A stretch of DNA of 64,000 nt from Haloarchaeobius sp. HME9146 (GTDB lineage: Archaea > Halobacteriota > Halobacteria > Halobacteriales > Natrialbaceae), in the NCBI RefSeq assembly GCF_025399835.1, contig NZ_JAODVR010000001.1:2170001-2234000 (forward strand), read 5' to 3'. The position numbers were made by a program, and so were the translations under genes. Of the stretch, positions 1 to 5,809 are shown in pieces; position 1 is the stretch's first letter; every line of letters starts with the position of its first letter. Under the pieces are notes generated by a model, which ran no database searches, was not told the origin of the DNA, and was given only the letters and a program-made list of their open reading frames with translations.

Positions 1-577
1 CGACGCCGGCGAGGGCGGCCCAGCGACGGCTCGCAGTGGCTTCGTCTGCCCGGACCGCCCGGACGTAGCCGAGCGCGAACAGCAGGTTCAGGAACGTCGT
101 CGGGGCGTACGGGAGGAAGAGACTGGACGCGAGCAGGAACATCGGCGAGAGCACGAGCAGGATGCCCGCGAGGACGCCGACCCGGCGGTCGAACGCCTCG
201 GTCCCGAGGGCGACCACCAGCGCGACGTTCCCGGCCGCGACGGCGGCGAGGGCGAGTCTCGGCACGCCGACGGCCAGCCCGAGCGCGAACATCCCGGCCG
301 GGACAGGTGCGTACTTCGGGTACATCGCGCCCTCGTCGACGACGAAGAACCACGGGCGGAACTCGTCGGCGAGTCCCGCCGGTGGGTAGTGCTGGAACTG
401 GCCGTCGAGCAGGAGCGCGGCCTGCTGGAGGTAGACCCCCTCGTCGTGGTTCAGGGAGTGGTACGGAAAGAGCTCGCTCGCGACGAGGAAGACGACGGCC
501 CCGGCCAGGAGGGAGAGCAGGAGGGTCGGGACGTACCGGGTCGCGAGAACGGTCCGGAGCCTGTCGACCCGTGCCAT
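1..577 (-). CDS. GT-C membrane glycosyltransferase, PMT/ArnT-like (partial, 3' end outside window)
   Basis: The frame opens with ATG at 577 and runs off the left edge, so only about 192 N-terminal residues are visible. It has a first membrane helix at about residues 15-34, then a loop with NHDEGVYLQQA at about 45-55, followed by further hydrophobic helices. An Asp/Glu pair in the first outward loop is the catalytic signature of GT-C enzymes (PMT, ArnT) that move sugars from polyprenyl phosphate carriers. The start lies 4 bp after the stop of the ABC ATPase, so it is probably the last gene of the iron-transport operon. Family level is inferred from this motif and topology; donor and acceptor are unknown. 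Confidence 0.7.
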   Translation of the reverse strand, partial: MARVDRLRTVLATRYVPTLLLSLLAGAVVFLVASELFPYHSLNHDEGVYLQQAALLLDGQFQHYPPAGLADEFRPWFFVVDEGAMYPKYAPVPAGMFALGLAVGVPRLALAAVAAGNVALVVALGTEAFDRRVGVLAGILLVLSPMFLLASSLFLPYAPTTFLNLLFALGYVRAVRADEATASRRWAALAGV

Positions 578-581
578 CGAT

Positions 582-1742
582 TCAGTCGTCCGCTTCGGCG
601 TAGTTCCCGGACTCGTCCACCTTCGGGAACCACGCGAGTTCGTGGTCGGCGGTCAGGTCGACCCGGACCCGCTGGTCGAGGTCGACCTGGTCGGTGTGAT
701 TGTGCATGCACTCGAGCACGTCGCCATTGTCGAGTTCGACCCGGTAGAGGATGGTCGGGCCGAGGTAGCGCCGGTAGATGACGCGCCCGTTCGATTCGGC
801 CCCGTCACAGGGGGCCGCACTGATGTCGTCCGGCCGGACGAGCACGTCGAGCGTCGTCCCATCGTACTCCTGGGCGAGACCGTGCATGATCTCGCGGTCG
901 ACGGTGCCGATGCCGGTCTCGACGGCCTCGCCGCGGAGGAAGCCCGAGAGGAAGGAGGCGTGACCCAGGAAGCCCGCGACGAAGCGGGACTCGGGGTGCT
1001 GGAACACCTGTTCGGGGCGACCGACCTGTTCGAGGTCGCCGTCGTTCATCACGGCCACGCGGTCGGAGATGCTCATCGCCTCCTCCTGGTCGTGGGTGAC
1101 CGAGATGGCGGTGACGCCGGCCTCCTTGAGGATGCGGCGCACCTCCTCGCGCATCTCGACGCGGAGGTCCACGTCGAGGTTCGAGAACGGTTCGTCGAGC
1201 AGCAGGATGCGCGGTTCCGGGGCGAGCGAGCGCGCCAGCGCGATGCGCTGTTGCTGGCCGCCCGAGAGCTCGTCGGGGTAGGCGTCGGCATGGGAGTGCA
1301 GGCCGACGAGGTCGAGCATCTCGTCGACCCGTTCCTGCTTCTGTGCCTCGTCCATGTCCTTCAGCCCGAAGCCGACGTTCTCACGAGCGGTCATGTGCGG
1401 GAACAGCGCGAACTCCTGGAAGACGACGCCGACGCCGCGCTTCTCGGGACTGACGAACGAGCCGTTGCCCGAGACGGCCGACCCGTTCAGGTTCACGGTG
1501 CCGCCGTCGGGGCGTTCGAGGCCCGCGACGAGCCGGAGCGTCGTGGTCTTGCCACAGCCCGACGGCCCGAGCATGGTGAGAATCTCGCCCTCGCGGACCG
1601 ACAGCGAGAGGTCGGTGATGACGTCCTCGGAGCCGTAGGATTTGGAGACGCCGTCCAGTTCCAGGACGGTCTCCGAATCCTCTACCGAGGGGCGGTCGTA
1701 CACGGTCTCGACGTCTGCAGTGATGGTCGCGTTACTTGACAT
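582..1742 (-). CDS. Fe3+-type ABC transporter ATP-binding protein (FbpC/PotA class)
   Basis: This 386-residue ATPase powers the permease encoded just upstream. Walker A is GPSGCGKTT (about residues 58-66), the signature is LSGGQQQRIALARSL, and Walker B is ILLLDEPFSNLD. The last 110 residues or so look like the TOBE regulatory domain usual in this class, giving a normal length. The start overlaps the permease stop by 11 bp, which implies translational coupling. The transported ion is inferred from the neighbouring binding protein and the metal-type operator, not from the ATPase itself. Confidence 0.9.
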   Translation of the reverse strand: MSSNATITADVETVYDRPSVEDSETVLELDGVSKSYGSEDVITDLSLSVREGEILTMLGPSGCGKTTTLRLVAGLERPDGGTVNLNGSAVSGNGSFVSPEKRGVGVVFQEFALFPHMTARENVGFGLKDMDEAQKQERVDEMLDLVGLHSHADAYPDELSGGQQQRIALARSLAPEPRILLLDEPFSNLDVDLRVEMREEVRRILKEAGVTAISVTHDQEEAMSISDRVAVMNDGDLEQVGRPEQVFQHPESRFVAGFLGHASFLSGFLRGEAVETGIGTVDREIMHGLAQEYDGTTLDVLVRPDDISAAPCDGAESNGRVIYRRYLGPTILYRVELDNGDVLECMHNHTDQVDLDQRVRVDLTADHELAWFPKVDESGNYAEADD

Positions 1743-3342
1743 CGTATCCCTCCTGGGAGAGTATCACGAAGATGGAGACGGCGGACACGCCGAGCAGGAT
1801 GAGCGCGGGCACCGCGGCGTCGTAGAACGCCTGGTTGCGGTGGGCCTGCCAGATGTGCGTGACCACGGTCTCGTAGCCGGTCGGCCGGAGCATCAGCGTC
1901 GCAGGGAGTTCCTTCATCGTCGTCAGGAACACCAGCGCCGCGCCCCCGAGCAGCCCCGGGGCCGCGAGCGGGAGCGTGATGGACCGGAACGCGCCGACCG
2001 AGGACCGACCCAGCGTGCGGGCGGCCTCGGGCAGCGACGGGTTGACCTGCAGGAACGACGCCCGGGTCGACCCCACCGACTGGGGCAGGAACCGGACGAC
2101 GTAGGCGAACACGAGGATGGGGAGCGTGTGGTACAGGTCGGTGAACGAGCGGGTGGTGATGAACACGAGCGCGAAGCCGATGACCACGCCGGGTGCCGCG
2201 TAGCCGACGTAGCTCAGGCGCTCCATTATCGCGCCCGCTCTGGTGTCGTGGCGCGCCGAGAGGTAGGCGATGGGTAGCCCGGCGAGCGTCGCCACGAGCG
2301 CCGCGCCGATGGAGAGCGAGATGGAGTTCGTCAGGTACGAGAACTCGAACGGGAGCCGCCAGTTCGAGGTCGGCCCGCGGAGCAGCCACCCGACGAGGAT
2401 GACGACCGGGACCACGAGCGCGACCGTGACGATGGACCCACAGAAGCCGAGCGCAGGCCACTTCCAGCGGCCGAGACGTGCCTTCGAGGCCCGCCCGCCC
2501 TGGCGGCCACTCGTGAACTTCTCGTTGCTGCGCAGTCGGCTCTCGACGCCGAGGATGAACACGGTGACGACGAGCAACTGGATGGAGAGCAACGCGGCAA
2601 GTCCCATGCTCCCGGTGTCGGTCTCGGACTTGATGACGGTCGTGAACACGGGGTAGCGCATGATGGCCGGGGTCCCGAAGTCCGACAGGGCGTACAGGGC
2701 GGTCAGCAAGGACCCGGCCGCGATGGCTGGCCTGAGCTGCGGGAGGACGACCCGGCGGACCGCCTCCAGTCGCGTGTGCTGGAGGGTGCGGGCCGCGTCG
2801 ACCAGCGAGGTGTCGACCGTCTTCAGGCTGGCGCGGGTGGTGATGTAGACGTACGGGTACGTGTAGAGCGTCAGCACCAGCACCGCTCCTTCGAGGCCCT
2901 TGATGGCCGGAAGTGACTCGACGCCGAGCGGGGCGAGGATGCCCTGAAGTTCGCCGTGGCTGCCGAACGCCGCAGTGAACACGAACGCGCCGATGTAGCT
3001 CGGGATGACGAGCGGCAGGGTCACGAGGATGGTCCAGAGCCGTCGTCCGGGCAGGTTCGTCCGGACGGTGAGGTACGCGAGGGGGACGCCGATGACCACG
3101 GAGAAACCGGTCACACCGGTGATCATCACGGCGGAGTTGACGAACACCGAGACGGTGGTGTCGGCGAGCAAGAGGTCGAGTGCGGTGCCCGAAGAGACCT
3201 CGCCGACCGCGACGAACAGCCAGAGCAGGGGGGCGACGACGGCCGCGGCGACCGCCGCGCTCGCCAACGTCAGCCCGAATGGGTACGAACCGCTCTGTGC
3301 GCCGTCGTTCGTCGCGGTCGCGTCGGTCTCTTCGACTGTCAT
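1732..3342 (-). CDS. Fe3+-type ABC transporter permease, fused two-domain FbpB class
   Basis: The 536-residue protein holds two consecutive binding-protein-dependent permease domains with about twelve membrane helices, the usual form for FbpB/SfuB/ThiP-type permeases. The N terminus is a short acidic cytoplasmic tail before the first helix at about residue 24. EAA-loop-like segments occur in both halves (for example SLVDAARTLQHTRLEAVRRV and SLPEAARTLGRSSVGAFRSI). It lies 15 bp downstream of the binding-protein gene and overlaps the ATPase gene. Iron is the most likely substrate; thiamine or another metal is possible for this family. Confidence 0.9.
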   Translation of the reverse strand: MTVEETDATATNDGAQSGSYPFGLTLASAAVAAAVVAPLLWLFVAVGEVSSGTALDLLLADTTVSVFVNSAVMITGVTGFSVVIGVPLAYLTVRTNLPGRRLWTILVTLPLVIPSYIGAFVFTAAFGSHGELQGILAPLGVESLPAIKGLEGAVLVLTLYTYPYVYITTRASLKTVDTSLVDAARTLQHTRLEAVRRVVLPQLRPAIAAGSLLTALYALSDFGTPAIMRYPVFTTVIKSETDTGSMGLAALLSIQLLVVTVFILGVESRLRSNEKFTSGRQGGRASKARLGRWKWPALGFCGSIVTVALVVPVVILVGWLLRGPTSNWRLPFEFSYLTNSISLSIGAALVATLAGLPIAYLSARHDTRAGAIMERLSYVGYAAPGVVIGFALVFITTRSFTDLYHTLPILVFAYVVRFLPQSVGSTRASFLQVNPSLPEAARTLGRSSVGAFRSITLPLAAPGLLGGAALVFLTTMKELPATLMLRPTGYETVVTHIWQAHRNQAFYDAAVPALILLGVSAVSIFVILSQEGYDVK

Positions 3343-3357: not shown

Positions 3358-4545
3358 CTACACCTGGATACCGACCTCACGCATGAGGTCGATGGTGGGC
3401 CCGATGTCCGAGAGCTTCGCGAGGTCGAAGTCGGGCGTGTTGAGTTCGTCGACGGGGGGCAGGTCGCCGACGGGGTTCACTTCGGGGATGACGGGGTACT
3501 CGAATGTACGAGTTGCGAAATACTCCTGTGCCTCGGCGGAGAGCAGGTGGCGGACGAAGTTGACCGCAGTCTGCCGGTTTTCGGCCGTCTGGTCGCCGTT
3601 CTCCGAAGTGTCGACGACGGCCGCACCGGCCACGTTGAAAATCGCCCCTGCGTCGTTGTTCGTGAACGCAGTCGCGATGGGCGCGTCCTCGTTACCGTCG
3701 AGGACACGCTGGATGTAGTAGTGGTTCGCGAACCCGGCGTCGAGGTCGCCGTTCGCGACCGCGCGGGAGACGATGAACTCGTCGGGGTAGCGCTCGACAC
3801 CCGCATCGAGCATGCCCTGGAGCCACTGTTTGGTCTCCTCGCGGCCGTTCATCACACGCATCGCGGTGACGAACGCCTGGAAGGAACCGTAGCCCGGGGC
3901 CCAGCCCATCGACCCATCGAAGTCGGGGAACGCGAAGATGTCGTCCGGAATCTCGGACTCCGAGTACGCGTTCGTGTTGTACGGGATGGTGCGGGCGCGG
4001 CCGGAGGTGCCGGTCCACTCGCCGTCGTTGTTGCGGTACTGCGTCGGGACCATCTCCTGGACGTCCTGCGGGAGCGCGACGGTCCGGTTCTCGTTCGCGA
4101 GCAGGCCGAGGGCCCCCGCGTTGACCGAGAACAGCACGTCTGCTTCGGTCGCCGCGCCGGCCGTCGTGATCTTGTTCGCCAGCGCGTTGGAGGAGTCGTA
4201 GCGGGTGTTGATGGTGAAGCCGTCGTACAGGCCCTCGATGTACTCGATGAGGGTGTTGACGAGGGGCTTGCCCCGGCCGGAGTAGAGCGTGAGGGTGCCC
4301 GAGAGGTCGGGCATCTCCGACATCGGCGTCCCGCCCGGCGCGGGACGTCCTTCCATACCGGAACCGACGGAGCCGAGCTCACCGCCGCCGGTCTCGCTGT
4401 CGGTCGGTTCGGTCGTGTCGGTCGAGTCGCTTCCCGAATTGAGACACCCCGCGACTGTCGTGACGCCGGTCGCCGCCGCGGCTGCGAGGAACCGCCGACG
4501 GTTCACGCTGGAGCCGGACGAGTCGCTATCGTCGAAATCTCTCAT
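3358..4545 (-). CDS. Iron ABC transporter substrate-binding lipoprotein (FbpA/FutA-like)
   Basis: This 395-residue exported protein begins with a Tat motif (RRRFLAAAAATG) and a lipobox ending in VAGC at about residue 34, followed by a Thr/Glu/Asp-rich linker, so it is probably a membrane-anchored lipoprotein on the cell surface. The mature part begins GTLTLYSGRGKPLV and carries NHYYIQRVL at about residue 250. The paired tyrosines match the iron ligands of FbpA/FutA proteins. It is the first gene of the operon with permease and ATPase. The TATA box and a 16-bp inverted repeat sit immediately upstream of the start, which indicates metal control. Confidence 0.9.
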   Translation of the reverse strand: MRDFDDSDSSGSSVNRRRFLAAAAATGVTTVAGCLNSGSDSTDTTEPTDSETGGGELGSVGSGMEGRPAPGGTPMSEMPDLSGTLTLYSGRGKPLVNTLIEYIEGLYDGFTINTRYDSSNALANKITTAGAATEADVLFSVNAGALGLLANENRTVALPQDVQEMVPTQYRNNDGEWTGTSGRARTIPYNTNAYSESEIPDDIFAFPDFDGSMGWAPGYGSFQAFVTAMRVMNGREETKQWLQGMLDAGVERYPDEFIVSRAVANGDLDAGFANHYYIQRVLDGNEDAPIATAFTNNDAGAIFNVAGAAVVDTSENGDQTAENRQTAVNFVRHLLSAEAQEYFATRTFEYPVIPEVNPVGDLPPVDELNTPDFDLAKLSDIGPTIDLMREVGIQV

Positions 4546-4552
4546 ACTTAGG

Positions 4553-4568
4553 TTTAGGCCGCCCTAAA
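4553..4568. promoter_or_regulatory. Candidate metalloregulator operator, 16-bp inverted repeat (site 1)
   Basis: The plus strand reads TTTAGGCCGCCCTAAA, a 6-bp perfect inverted repeat (TTTAGG/CCTAAA) around a 4-bp centre. It lies between the TATA-like box and the start codon of the binding-protein gene, over the expected transcription start. The half-site resembles operators of DtxR/SirR-type metal repressors in haloarchaea. The same 16 bp recur in inverse orientation at 5794-5809. Confidence 0.75.
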
Positions 4569-4570
4569 TC

Positions 4571-4579
4571 ATTTATAGC
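4571..4579 (-). promoter_or_regulatory. TATA box of the iron transporter operon
   Basis: On the minus strand this reads GCTATAAAT, about 25-30 bp upstream of the ATG at 4545. That spacing predicts a leaderless or nearly leaderless transcript, common in haloarchaea. The inverted repeat at 4553-4568 falls between box and start, so a bound repressor would block initiation. Confidence 0.6.
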
Positions 4580-4614
4580 TGCCGATTCGGTGTCGTGTTT
4601 TCGTGCCATGAGTA

Positions 4615-5775
4615 TCAGTCGTCTGCAGGGACCGCGGCAGGTTCGTGGCCCGGAACCGCGGACAGTTCGTCGAGGCAGTCCAGCCAGTCCAGACAGTACT
4701 CGCCGACGTGGTTGAGGAAGTCGCCGTTCTGGTACGCGTCGAAGTCACCCTCCGCGAGGGCGTCGGCCATCGCGGCCATGACCTCGGCGTAGGTGTCGGC
4801 GTCGTCGCCGACCGGGTCGACGACCTCCCAGAAGTGCTCGTTCAGTTCGAGCCCTGCGACCTCGTTGTGCAGGTCGTCGAACGTCGAGCGCGGGGCCTTG
4901 TTGTGCTCACACAGCGGGAACCCGTTGAGGATGCGGCCGCCGAGCACGTCGCAGGCGCGCTTGAGGAAGACGCCCGACCAGATGTCGTCGAAGCGGCCGA
5001 CCTCCCACGGGTTGTCGTCCATCGGCGTCTGGTAGAACGCGGGGACGACCTCGCGGCGGAACGCGAGGTTCATCGAGCAGACCGTGAGGTAGTTCCGGCG
5101 GGCCGCGACGAAGTTACGGTCGAAATCCTCGTTCCCGGTCCGGGTCTGGGCCTGCCCCTGCAGGTCGCCGTCCATCAGGATGCGGACGGCGTCGAGGTCG
5201 GGGACGTTCGTCCAGAGACCCTGGGAGGCGACGACGTTCGAGACCTCCTCGGTCCCGGTCTCGATGTCCTCGTGCATCGCCGCGTAGGGGTACCCGCGCG
5301 GGTAGAGGTCGTGGTCGCTCTGGTAGAGGACGTTGACCCACTGCTCGTCGGAGCTGACGGACTCGACCTCGCCCTCGTACTGGAGGTTCGCGAGGTGCTG
5401 TCCGAAGAAGTCCTGGTCGTCGTGGGGGAGCGTGTCGTCGTCGATGAAGACGCCGAACTCGAAGTCGTTCGCCCACAGGTAGAGCAGCCCGAACGAGGTC
5501 TGGGCGTGACTCGCCGCGGGGACGAGGTGACTGTACTCGGAGATGCCCTGTTCGGCGTACCACTCCTCGCGGTCGGACTCGTCGAAGACGCGGCCCGAGA
5601 CGTCGAGGTCGTCAAGCATCGCCTGCATCTCGTCGGTGTCACAGAAGTCCTCGGTCACGAGGACGACGTGGAGTCGGTCGGTGTCGAAGCCGTGGTCGCG
5701 GGCGTTCTCGATGTACGCACGCATGCACTCGTACTCCCTGATGGTGGGGACGATGACGCAACAATCCTCAGTCAT
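4615..5775 (-). CDS. GT75 / reversibly glycosylated polypeptide (UDP-arabinopyranose mutase-like) family protein
   Basis: The 386-residue soluble protein resembles plant RGP/UAM proteins along most of its length. It opens with IVPTIREYECM, has a nucleotide-sugar-type FIDDDTLP at about residues 110-116, then RGYPYAAMHE (from about 160), SQGLWTNVPDLDA, CSMNLAFRREV and GRFDDIWSGVF, all in the family order. In plants an Arg in the RGYP region is reported to be the reversible self-glycosylation site; the equivalent here is Arg160. It has no signal or membrane segment, so it should act in the cytoplasm on nucleotide sugars. The start is 19 bp from an operator identical to that of the iron transporter, so its expression is probably metal controlled. 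The archaeal substrate is unknown. Confidence 0.75.
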   Translation of the reverse strand: MTEDCCVIVPTIREYECMRAYIENARDHGFDTDRLHVVLVTEDFCDTDEMQAMLDDLDVSGRVFDESDREEWYAEQGISEYSHLVPAASHAQTSFGLLYLWANDFEFGVFIDDDTLPHDDQDFFGQHLANLQYEGEVESVSSDEQWVNVLYQSDHDLYPRGYPYAAMHEDIETGTEEVSNVVASQGLWTNVPDLDAVRILMDGDLQGQAQTRTGNEDFDRNFVAARRNYLTVCSMNLAFRREVVPAFYQTPMDDNPWEVGRFDDIWSGVFLKRACDVLGGRILNGFPLCEHNKAPRSTFDDLHNEVAGLELNEHFWEVVDPVGDDADTYAEVMAAMADALAEGDFDAYQNGDFLNHVGEYCLDWLDCLDELSAVPGHEPAAVPADD

Positions 5776-5793
5776 TCGTTGTTAGTGGCTGTG

Positions 5794-5809
5794 TTTAGGG
5801 CGGCCTAAA
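5794..5809. promoter_or_regulatory. Candidate metalloregulator operator, 16-bp inverted repeat (site 2)
   Basis: The sequence TTTAGGGCGGCCTAAA is the exact reverse complement of the operator at 4553-4568. It lies 19 bp upstream of the GT75-family start codon. Two identical 16-mers at the promoters of two consecutive genes are unlikely by chance and point to one shared regulator. No dtxR/sirR-type gene is in the window. Confidence 0.7.

Follow-up and report, generated by a model that had tools for sequence, protein, structure and literature searches.

In Haloarchaeobius sp. HME9146 we identified a gene cluster in which a ferric-iron-binding protein gene and a GT75-family gene each have a 16-bp palindrome in the promoter, and in which a convergent hexose transferase gene carries a related site of its own. 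These palindromes are likely to be the operators of an iron-loaded DtxR-family repressor, so that low iron would induce ferric uptake together with a glycosylation route that uses dolichyl-phosphate sugars. For repressor binding, the iron response, the order of the enzymes and the sugar, this proposal draws on what is established for the respective families. An earlier note on this DNA had pointed to the palindromes at the GT75 and ferric-binding genes; the present analysis goes further in placing GT75 in a conserved iron-box cluster with a seemingly complete glycosylation pathway.

The window, the 64-kb stretch of DNA that was analysed, covers positions 2170001-2234000 of the larger replicon of this 4.19-Mb haloarchaeal genome. 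Iron box 1, TTTAGGCCGCCCTAAA (4553..4568, no strand assigned), is found at the ferric-binding protein gene between its TATA box (TATAAA, 4572..4577, minus strand) and its start codon (4543-4545, minus strand), ending 7 nt upstream of the latter and giving the minus-strand order TATAAA-tga-[box]-cctaagt-ATG; TATAAG or TATAAA occurs at the same place in relatives. Iron box 2, TTTAGGGCGGCCTAAA on the plus strand (5794..5809, no strand assigned), lies in the GT75 promoter, overlaps the expected TATA position and ends 18 nt upstream of the GT75 start codon (5773-5775, minus strand). The earlier note had described an inverted 16-bp repeat at two promoters, the first copy between TATA box and start, and had likened it to DtxR-family sites. 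Both locations were correct, the sites are exact reverse complements of each other, and the position relative to the TATA box and the start codon is as described. The likeness also holds, as the inner 14 bp match the IdeR/DtxR consensus. This binding site was redefined as the 14-bp consensus TTAGGNNNNCCTAA from crystal structures and EMSA (PMC8464063), and its core is present in both window sites. Within the 16 bp shared by the two sites, the information lies in the half-sites, which are fixed in relatives; the centre differs there between GT75 and ferric boxes. Since half-sites are fixed and centre bases vary, the identical centres in the window are a coincidence, and a special pairing of the two boxes through their centres was ruled out. 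No further site with up to three mismatches to the 16-mer was present in the window (shuffles, mean 0.06).

To describe the box across genomes, we defined it as TTTAGG-N4-CCTAAA and used the same pattern reversed as control. The HME9146 genome contains 9 exact boxes, where about 0.005 would be expected from the dinucleotide composition, and no exact copy of the reversed control. Random occurrence, which the earlier note had named as a refutation of its reading, is thus not what is seen. Across 61 genomes (our own and 60 relatives), 380 exact boxes were found compared to 13 for the control, and 57 of the 61 genomes have at least one. In 60 unrelated loci, the background of sites with one mismatch or none is one per 212 kb. 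Of the search proposed in the earlier note, with up to two mismatches, the exact and one-mismatch sites discriminate, but at two mismatches the genome yields 24 sites and the reversed control yields 47. Perfect palindromes are able to form hairpins, and the boxes could in principle be RNA hairpins, terminators or chance matches. This is hardly credible given the excess of exact sites, the conservation of half-sites around variable centres, a position that coincides with the expected start of transcription or lies upstream of it, and the 33-36 bp spacing kept by twin boxes before siderophore-type binding protein genes. Among 47 distinct pairs of boxes at most 45 bp apart, 36 show this spacing. 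Twin boxes often have siderophore-type binding protein genes downstream and often a TATA-like stretch between the members of the pair (examples are C2:648410/648446 and C2:654331/654367 in L019, and loci L066, L071, L076, L081, L082, L101 and L103).

A census of the genes that follow exact boxes, taken in HME9146 itself and in nine genomes from related families, gave 92 proteins. Siderophore-type binding proteins (Peripla_BP_2) make up 18 of the 92, followed by RGP/GT75 (9) and ferric-type SBPs (8); the remainder include ABC ATPases, GT2 proteins, FAD-dependent oxidoreductases and one DtxR-family gene, and an aminotransferase gene of the siderophore-synthesis kind also stands behind a box. The clustering upstream of iron genes that the earlier note had asked about is thus seen, with ferric and siderophore uptake genes prevailing behind boxes across haloarchaea. 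The census also supplies a list of further putative iron-box targets. Haloarchaeal proteins with DUF7551/DUF7552 and DUF7553 recur beside boxes in different genomes (L016:7148 and L016:7214, corresponding to C1:264147 and 264213; L070:2508; L023:6629-6679, corresponding to C1:2981628-2981678; L083:2550) and are candidate new members of the iron regulon. One exact box (L018:6057, C1:2749056) is located 10 nt upstream of a gene for a small Rieske-domain protein, and another (L017:6711, C1:2370710) has no obvious gene start next to it but lies in the vicinity of a Dps/ferritin-like gene.

The DtxR family also includes manganese sensors, and the boxes could be operators of a family member responding to manganese or some other metal, or of a regulator from outside the family, in which case the cluster would not be primarily iron-responsive. 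One haloarchaeal SirR is reported to respond to Mn(II) and to repress metal ABC transporters (PMC3600143), and one of the DtxR genes of HME9146 adjoins a metal ABC permease gene. We nevertheless consider this explanation quite improbable, because in genome after genome the box precedes genes for ferric-binding and siderophore-type binding proteins, it precedes the aminotransferase gene mentioned above, and a ferR regulon signal (Leyn and Rodionov, 2015, cited in PMC11349517) is reported ahead of the fhu operons of Haloferax volcanii. The iron box is very probably this ferR signal. HME9146 encodes three full DtxR-family proteins, and in two of the three the recognition helix keeps the proline and threonine with which IdeR contacts its box (PMC8464063). 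None of the three genes is itself preceded by a box. Likewise, in 60 DtxR-gene loci, comprising orthologues of two of the HME9146 paralogues, no box was found at 59, the one exception being a weak site (L177). Because the DtxR genes lack boxes of their own, the box cannot be assigned to one regulator via autoregulation, and this route was ruled out. An extra DtxR-family paralogue of 138 aa in another genome (G056:C8) is flanked by exact boxes (L100:2505 and L100:3103), suggesting that this paralogue, unlike the standard DtxR genes, is autoregulated.

The association of the box with GT75 was analyzed in two samples; in the first, a box was scored when it lay in the 150 nt upstream of the gene and had one mismatch or none. 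In the first sample, 38 GT75 loci (37 from relatives and our own), all 31 genes with at least 65% identity carry the box, 26 of them exactly, compared to none of the 7 genes with 59-62% identity, which lie outside the iron cluster. In the second sample, drawn by family search, the box is present at 25/25 GT75 genes with an adjacent ferric-binding gene and at 0/5 without this neighbour, including one (L190) with 69% identity to the HME9146 protein. The Fisher values (8e-8 and 7e-6, respectively) overstate independence, as the genomes are related. The promoter of the ferric-binding gene has a box in 25 of 30 homologous loci, and no box was found at the operon-internal GT-C (0/29) and ATPase (0/16) genes. 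Control of GT75 by the box therefore appears, as far as sequence can indicate, to be deeply conserved. Alignments anchored on the box revealed three promoter arrangements, each stable across genera. At the ferric gene, TATAAG or TATAAA stands directly 5' of the box, and in most cases the start codon follows a few nt 3' of it. At GT75, the box is at TATA distance, usually after GACA, and no separate TATA was seen in this alignment. At the hexose transferase gene, the box lies in many loci just 5' of a TATA-like stretch. Judged by position, a protein bound in any of the three layouts would block TBP/TFB or the polymerase.

The GT75 gene (4615..5775, minus strand) encodes a predicted GT75/RGP-family NDP-pyranose mutase-like protein of 386 aa. 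The family assignment made in the earlier note is borne out by the Pfam RGP profile (E 8.7e-16, 58.5 bits against a cut-off of 23.8), by sequence similarity to the GDP-pyranose mutase MtdL (E 2e-22), by a predicted fold like that of MtdL (TM 0.80; model pLDDT 84), and by the remaining catalytic residues. The residues important in MtdL, among them an arginine whose plant counterparts become glycosylated, were defined previously (PMC9937993). Invariant in 22 homologues are the DXD motif (D112-D114), Arg160, which corresponds to this arginine, Asp193, Ser234, Arg261, the catalytic Asp264 and His291. Two residues that are essential in MtdL but do not define the family, D87 and Q229, are replaced by His90 and Met235, both invariant here, so that substrate or activity may differ from MtdL. 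HME9146 has no other RGP gene, and of 242 genomes from the class 196 contain the GT75 family. A second, full-length RGP protein in another haloarchaeal genome (L178, G065:C2:1525556-1526527) is much more typical, scoring 452 bits against Pfam RGP; it is 26% identical to the window GT75, and its gene adjoins glycosyltransferase-like genes.

The cluster reads, 5' to 3', box, GT75, box, ferric lipoprotein, permease, ATPase and GT-C, with the boxed GT2 gene convergent to it. The GT-C glycosyltransferase gene (C1:2168430-2170577, minus strand) has its 5' part in the window (1..577) and encodes a PMT-like protein of 715 aa with DUF7846, according to Pfam, AlphaFold and Foldseek. Its AlphaFold model (pLDDT 85) has ArnT as best Foldseek match (E 5.9e-07), followed by OST, ALG9, AftA and Pmt4, and the sequence stays below the Pfam cut-offs for PMT (21.7 vs 22.7) and PMT_2 (21.6 vs 26.1). 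We predict from the model that it is a GT-C superfamily enzyme with DUF7846, and do not assign it to PMT. The GT2 protein (238 aa), whose gene lies outside the window with its own one-mismatch box at C1:2167522, passes the NF041391 profile for dolichyl-phosphate hexose transferase (400.7 bits vs 375).

Co-occurrence was examined in 40 genomes picked by GT75, 20 with and 20 without the gene. The GT-C gene is present in 20/20 GT75-positive and 0/20 GT75-negative genomes. The same distribution (20/20 and 0/20) was found for orthologues of the hexose transferase (68-100% identity), the GT75-negative genomes having only paralogues of 30-37% identity. All 20 GT75-negative and 13 of the 20 GT75-positive genomes belong to the family of HME9146, indicating that the co-occurrence is not simply a deep-lineage split. 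The natural reading of these gene contents is that GT75, GT-C and the hexose transferase act in one pathway. It is rather unlikely that GT75 and its partners are iron-regulated merely through their operon or neighbourhood with the ferric transporter, with a function unrelated to iron. GT75 directly precedes the ferric gene and shares its strand, which makes read-through likely, and GT75 homologues away from iron genes do exist. Those distant from ferric genes, however, have no box, whereas in the cluster GT75 and the hexose transferase gene on the opposite strand each have their own conserved box. Moreover, the order GT75, ferric gene, GT-C is kept at those loci of relatives where permease and ATPase lie elsewhere, so that the ferric gene remains between the two glycosylation genes when its transport partners move.

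Additional genes accompany the cluster in other genomes. A UPF0104 gene precedes GT75 in some lineages, with a box in 10/10 cases. Because boxed UPF0104 genes flank GT75 in these genomes, HVO_1859, a UPF0104 gene that is 11.6-fold up in iron starvation (PMC11349517), was at first taken as support; it was dropped, as its neighbours encode a thiamine-phosphate kinase and an M50 protease. In many lineages a gene pair for Gluconate_2-dh3 and a GMC oxidoreductase, often boxed, occurs in or near the GT75 cluster (L021:6625, corresponding to C1:2109624; L093:10066; L102:2540; L105:2565). A sugar oxidase that is secreted and iron-controlled could generate carboxylate ligands for iron.

The ferric transporter consists of a ferric-iron-binding lipoprotein of the FbpA/HitA type (3358..4545, minus strand, 395 aa; PDB 7w3w, E 8.7e-55; invariant NHYY), a fused double ABC permease (1732..3342, minus strand, 536 aa; two stretches of Pfam BPD_transp_1) and an ABC ATPase with a TOBE domain (582..1742, minus strand, 386 aa; Pfam ABC_tran and TOBE_2). 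The stalk of the lipoprotein contains a GSG motif in 26/26 aligned GT75-linked ferric proteins. The motif is absent from the stalk of several close relatives in genomes without GT75, L211 being an exception. The GSG stalk is suggestive of a glycan acceptor but was dropped as proof of one. A dedicated system for glycosylation under iron starvation, formed by the GT75, hexose transferase and GT-C module, might place a sugar, possibly a furanose, on the ferric lipoprotein, perhaps at the stalk GSG, or on the S-layer, and so aid capture or retention of ferric iron at the surface. We regard this proposal as doubtful though possible, and the assignment of the acceptor as speculative.

The proposed mechanism would operate as follows. 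When iron is plentiful, the Fe(II)-loaded DtxR-family repressor would occupy the boxes and occlude the pre-initiation complex, covering the TATA position at GT75, sitting between TATA and start at the ferric-binding gene, and lying just upstream of TATA at the hexose transferase gene. When iron is short, the boxes would be vacated, and the ferric ABC transporter and the glycosylation module would be expressed. GT75 would then interconvert the pyranose and furanose forms of a nucleotide-activated sugar, the hexose transferase would charge dolichyl phosphate with a sugar, and the GT-C enzyme would move this sugar to an acceptor outside the cell; the UPF0104-type membrane protein of some lineages is a possible flippase. 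The mechanism suggests that cells alter their surface sugars when iron is scarce.

The operator type is already known, and the regulon very likely is as well. A glycosylation pathway inside an iron regulon was not found in a literature search that left out the main haloarchaeal DtxR regulon studies, and GT75 may have been listed before as a predicted or ChIP target. Under this proposal, iron sensing in archaea would be tied to the glycosylation of proteins or of the surface by an operator whose conservation spans most haloarchaeal genera, and the GT75 proteins of haloarchaea would gain a testable physiological role. Halobacterium salinarum is a genetically tractable model, and as both cluster and boxes are present there (L042), the idea can be tested directly.

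Each component resembles a known system. Like MtdL, hyg20 and the plant UAM/RGP proteins (PMC9937993), the HME9146 GT75 has the Pfam RGP domain, the fold and most catalytic residues of the family, but it resides in an iron-box cluster rather than in an antibiotic or cell-wall pathway. The GT-C protein shares with the polyprenyl-phosphate sugar users ArnT, PMT and AftA the GT-C fold and, within its first outer loop, an invariant DE pair, and differs in having 12-14% identity, a score below the Pfam PMT cut-off and an extra C-terminal DUF7846. The lipoprotein matches FbpA/HitA in sequence and in having an invariant Tyr-Tyr pair where the ligands usually lie, and is distinguished by a variable, acidic, Ser/Thr-containing stalk with the invariant GSG. 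The candidate operator has the same core half-sites and 4-bp centre as the actinobacterial IdeR/DtxR iron box, which is likewise found at promoters of iron-uptake genes (PMC8464063), but shows an extra conserved T/A on each side (TTTAGG..CCTAAA) and sits at archaeal TATA/BRE promoters. Based on the three DtxR-family proteins and the boxes at siderophore-type and ferric uptake genes, the regulon is very probably the same as the haloarchaeal DtxR-family regulons described for Idr1/Idr2, SirR, TroR and ferR, from which that of HME9146 would differ in containing a putative glycosylation module.
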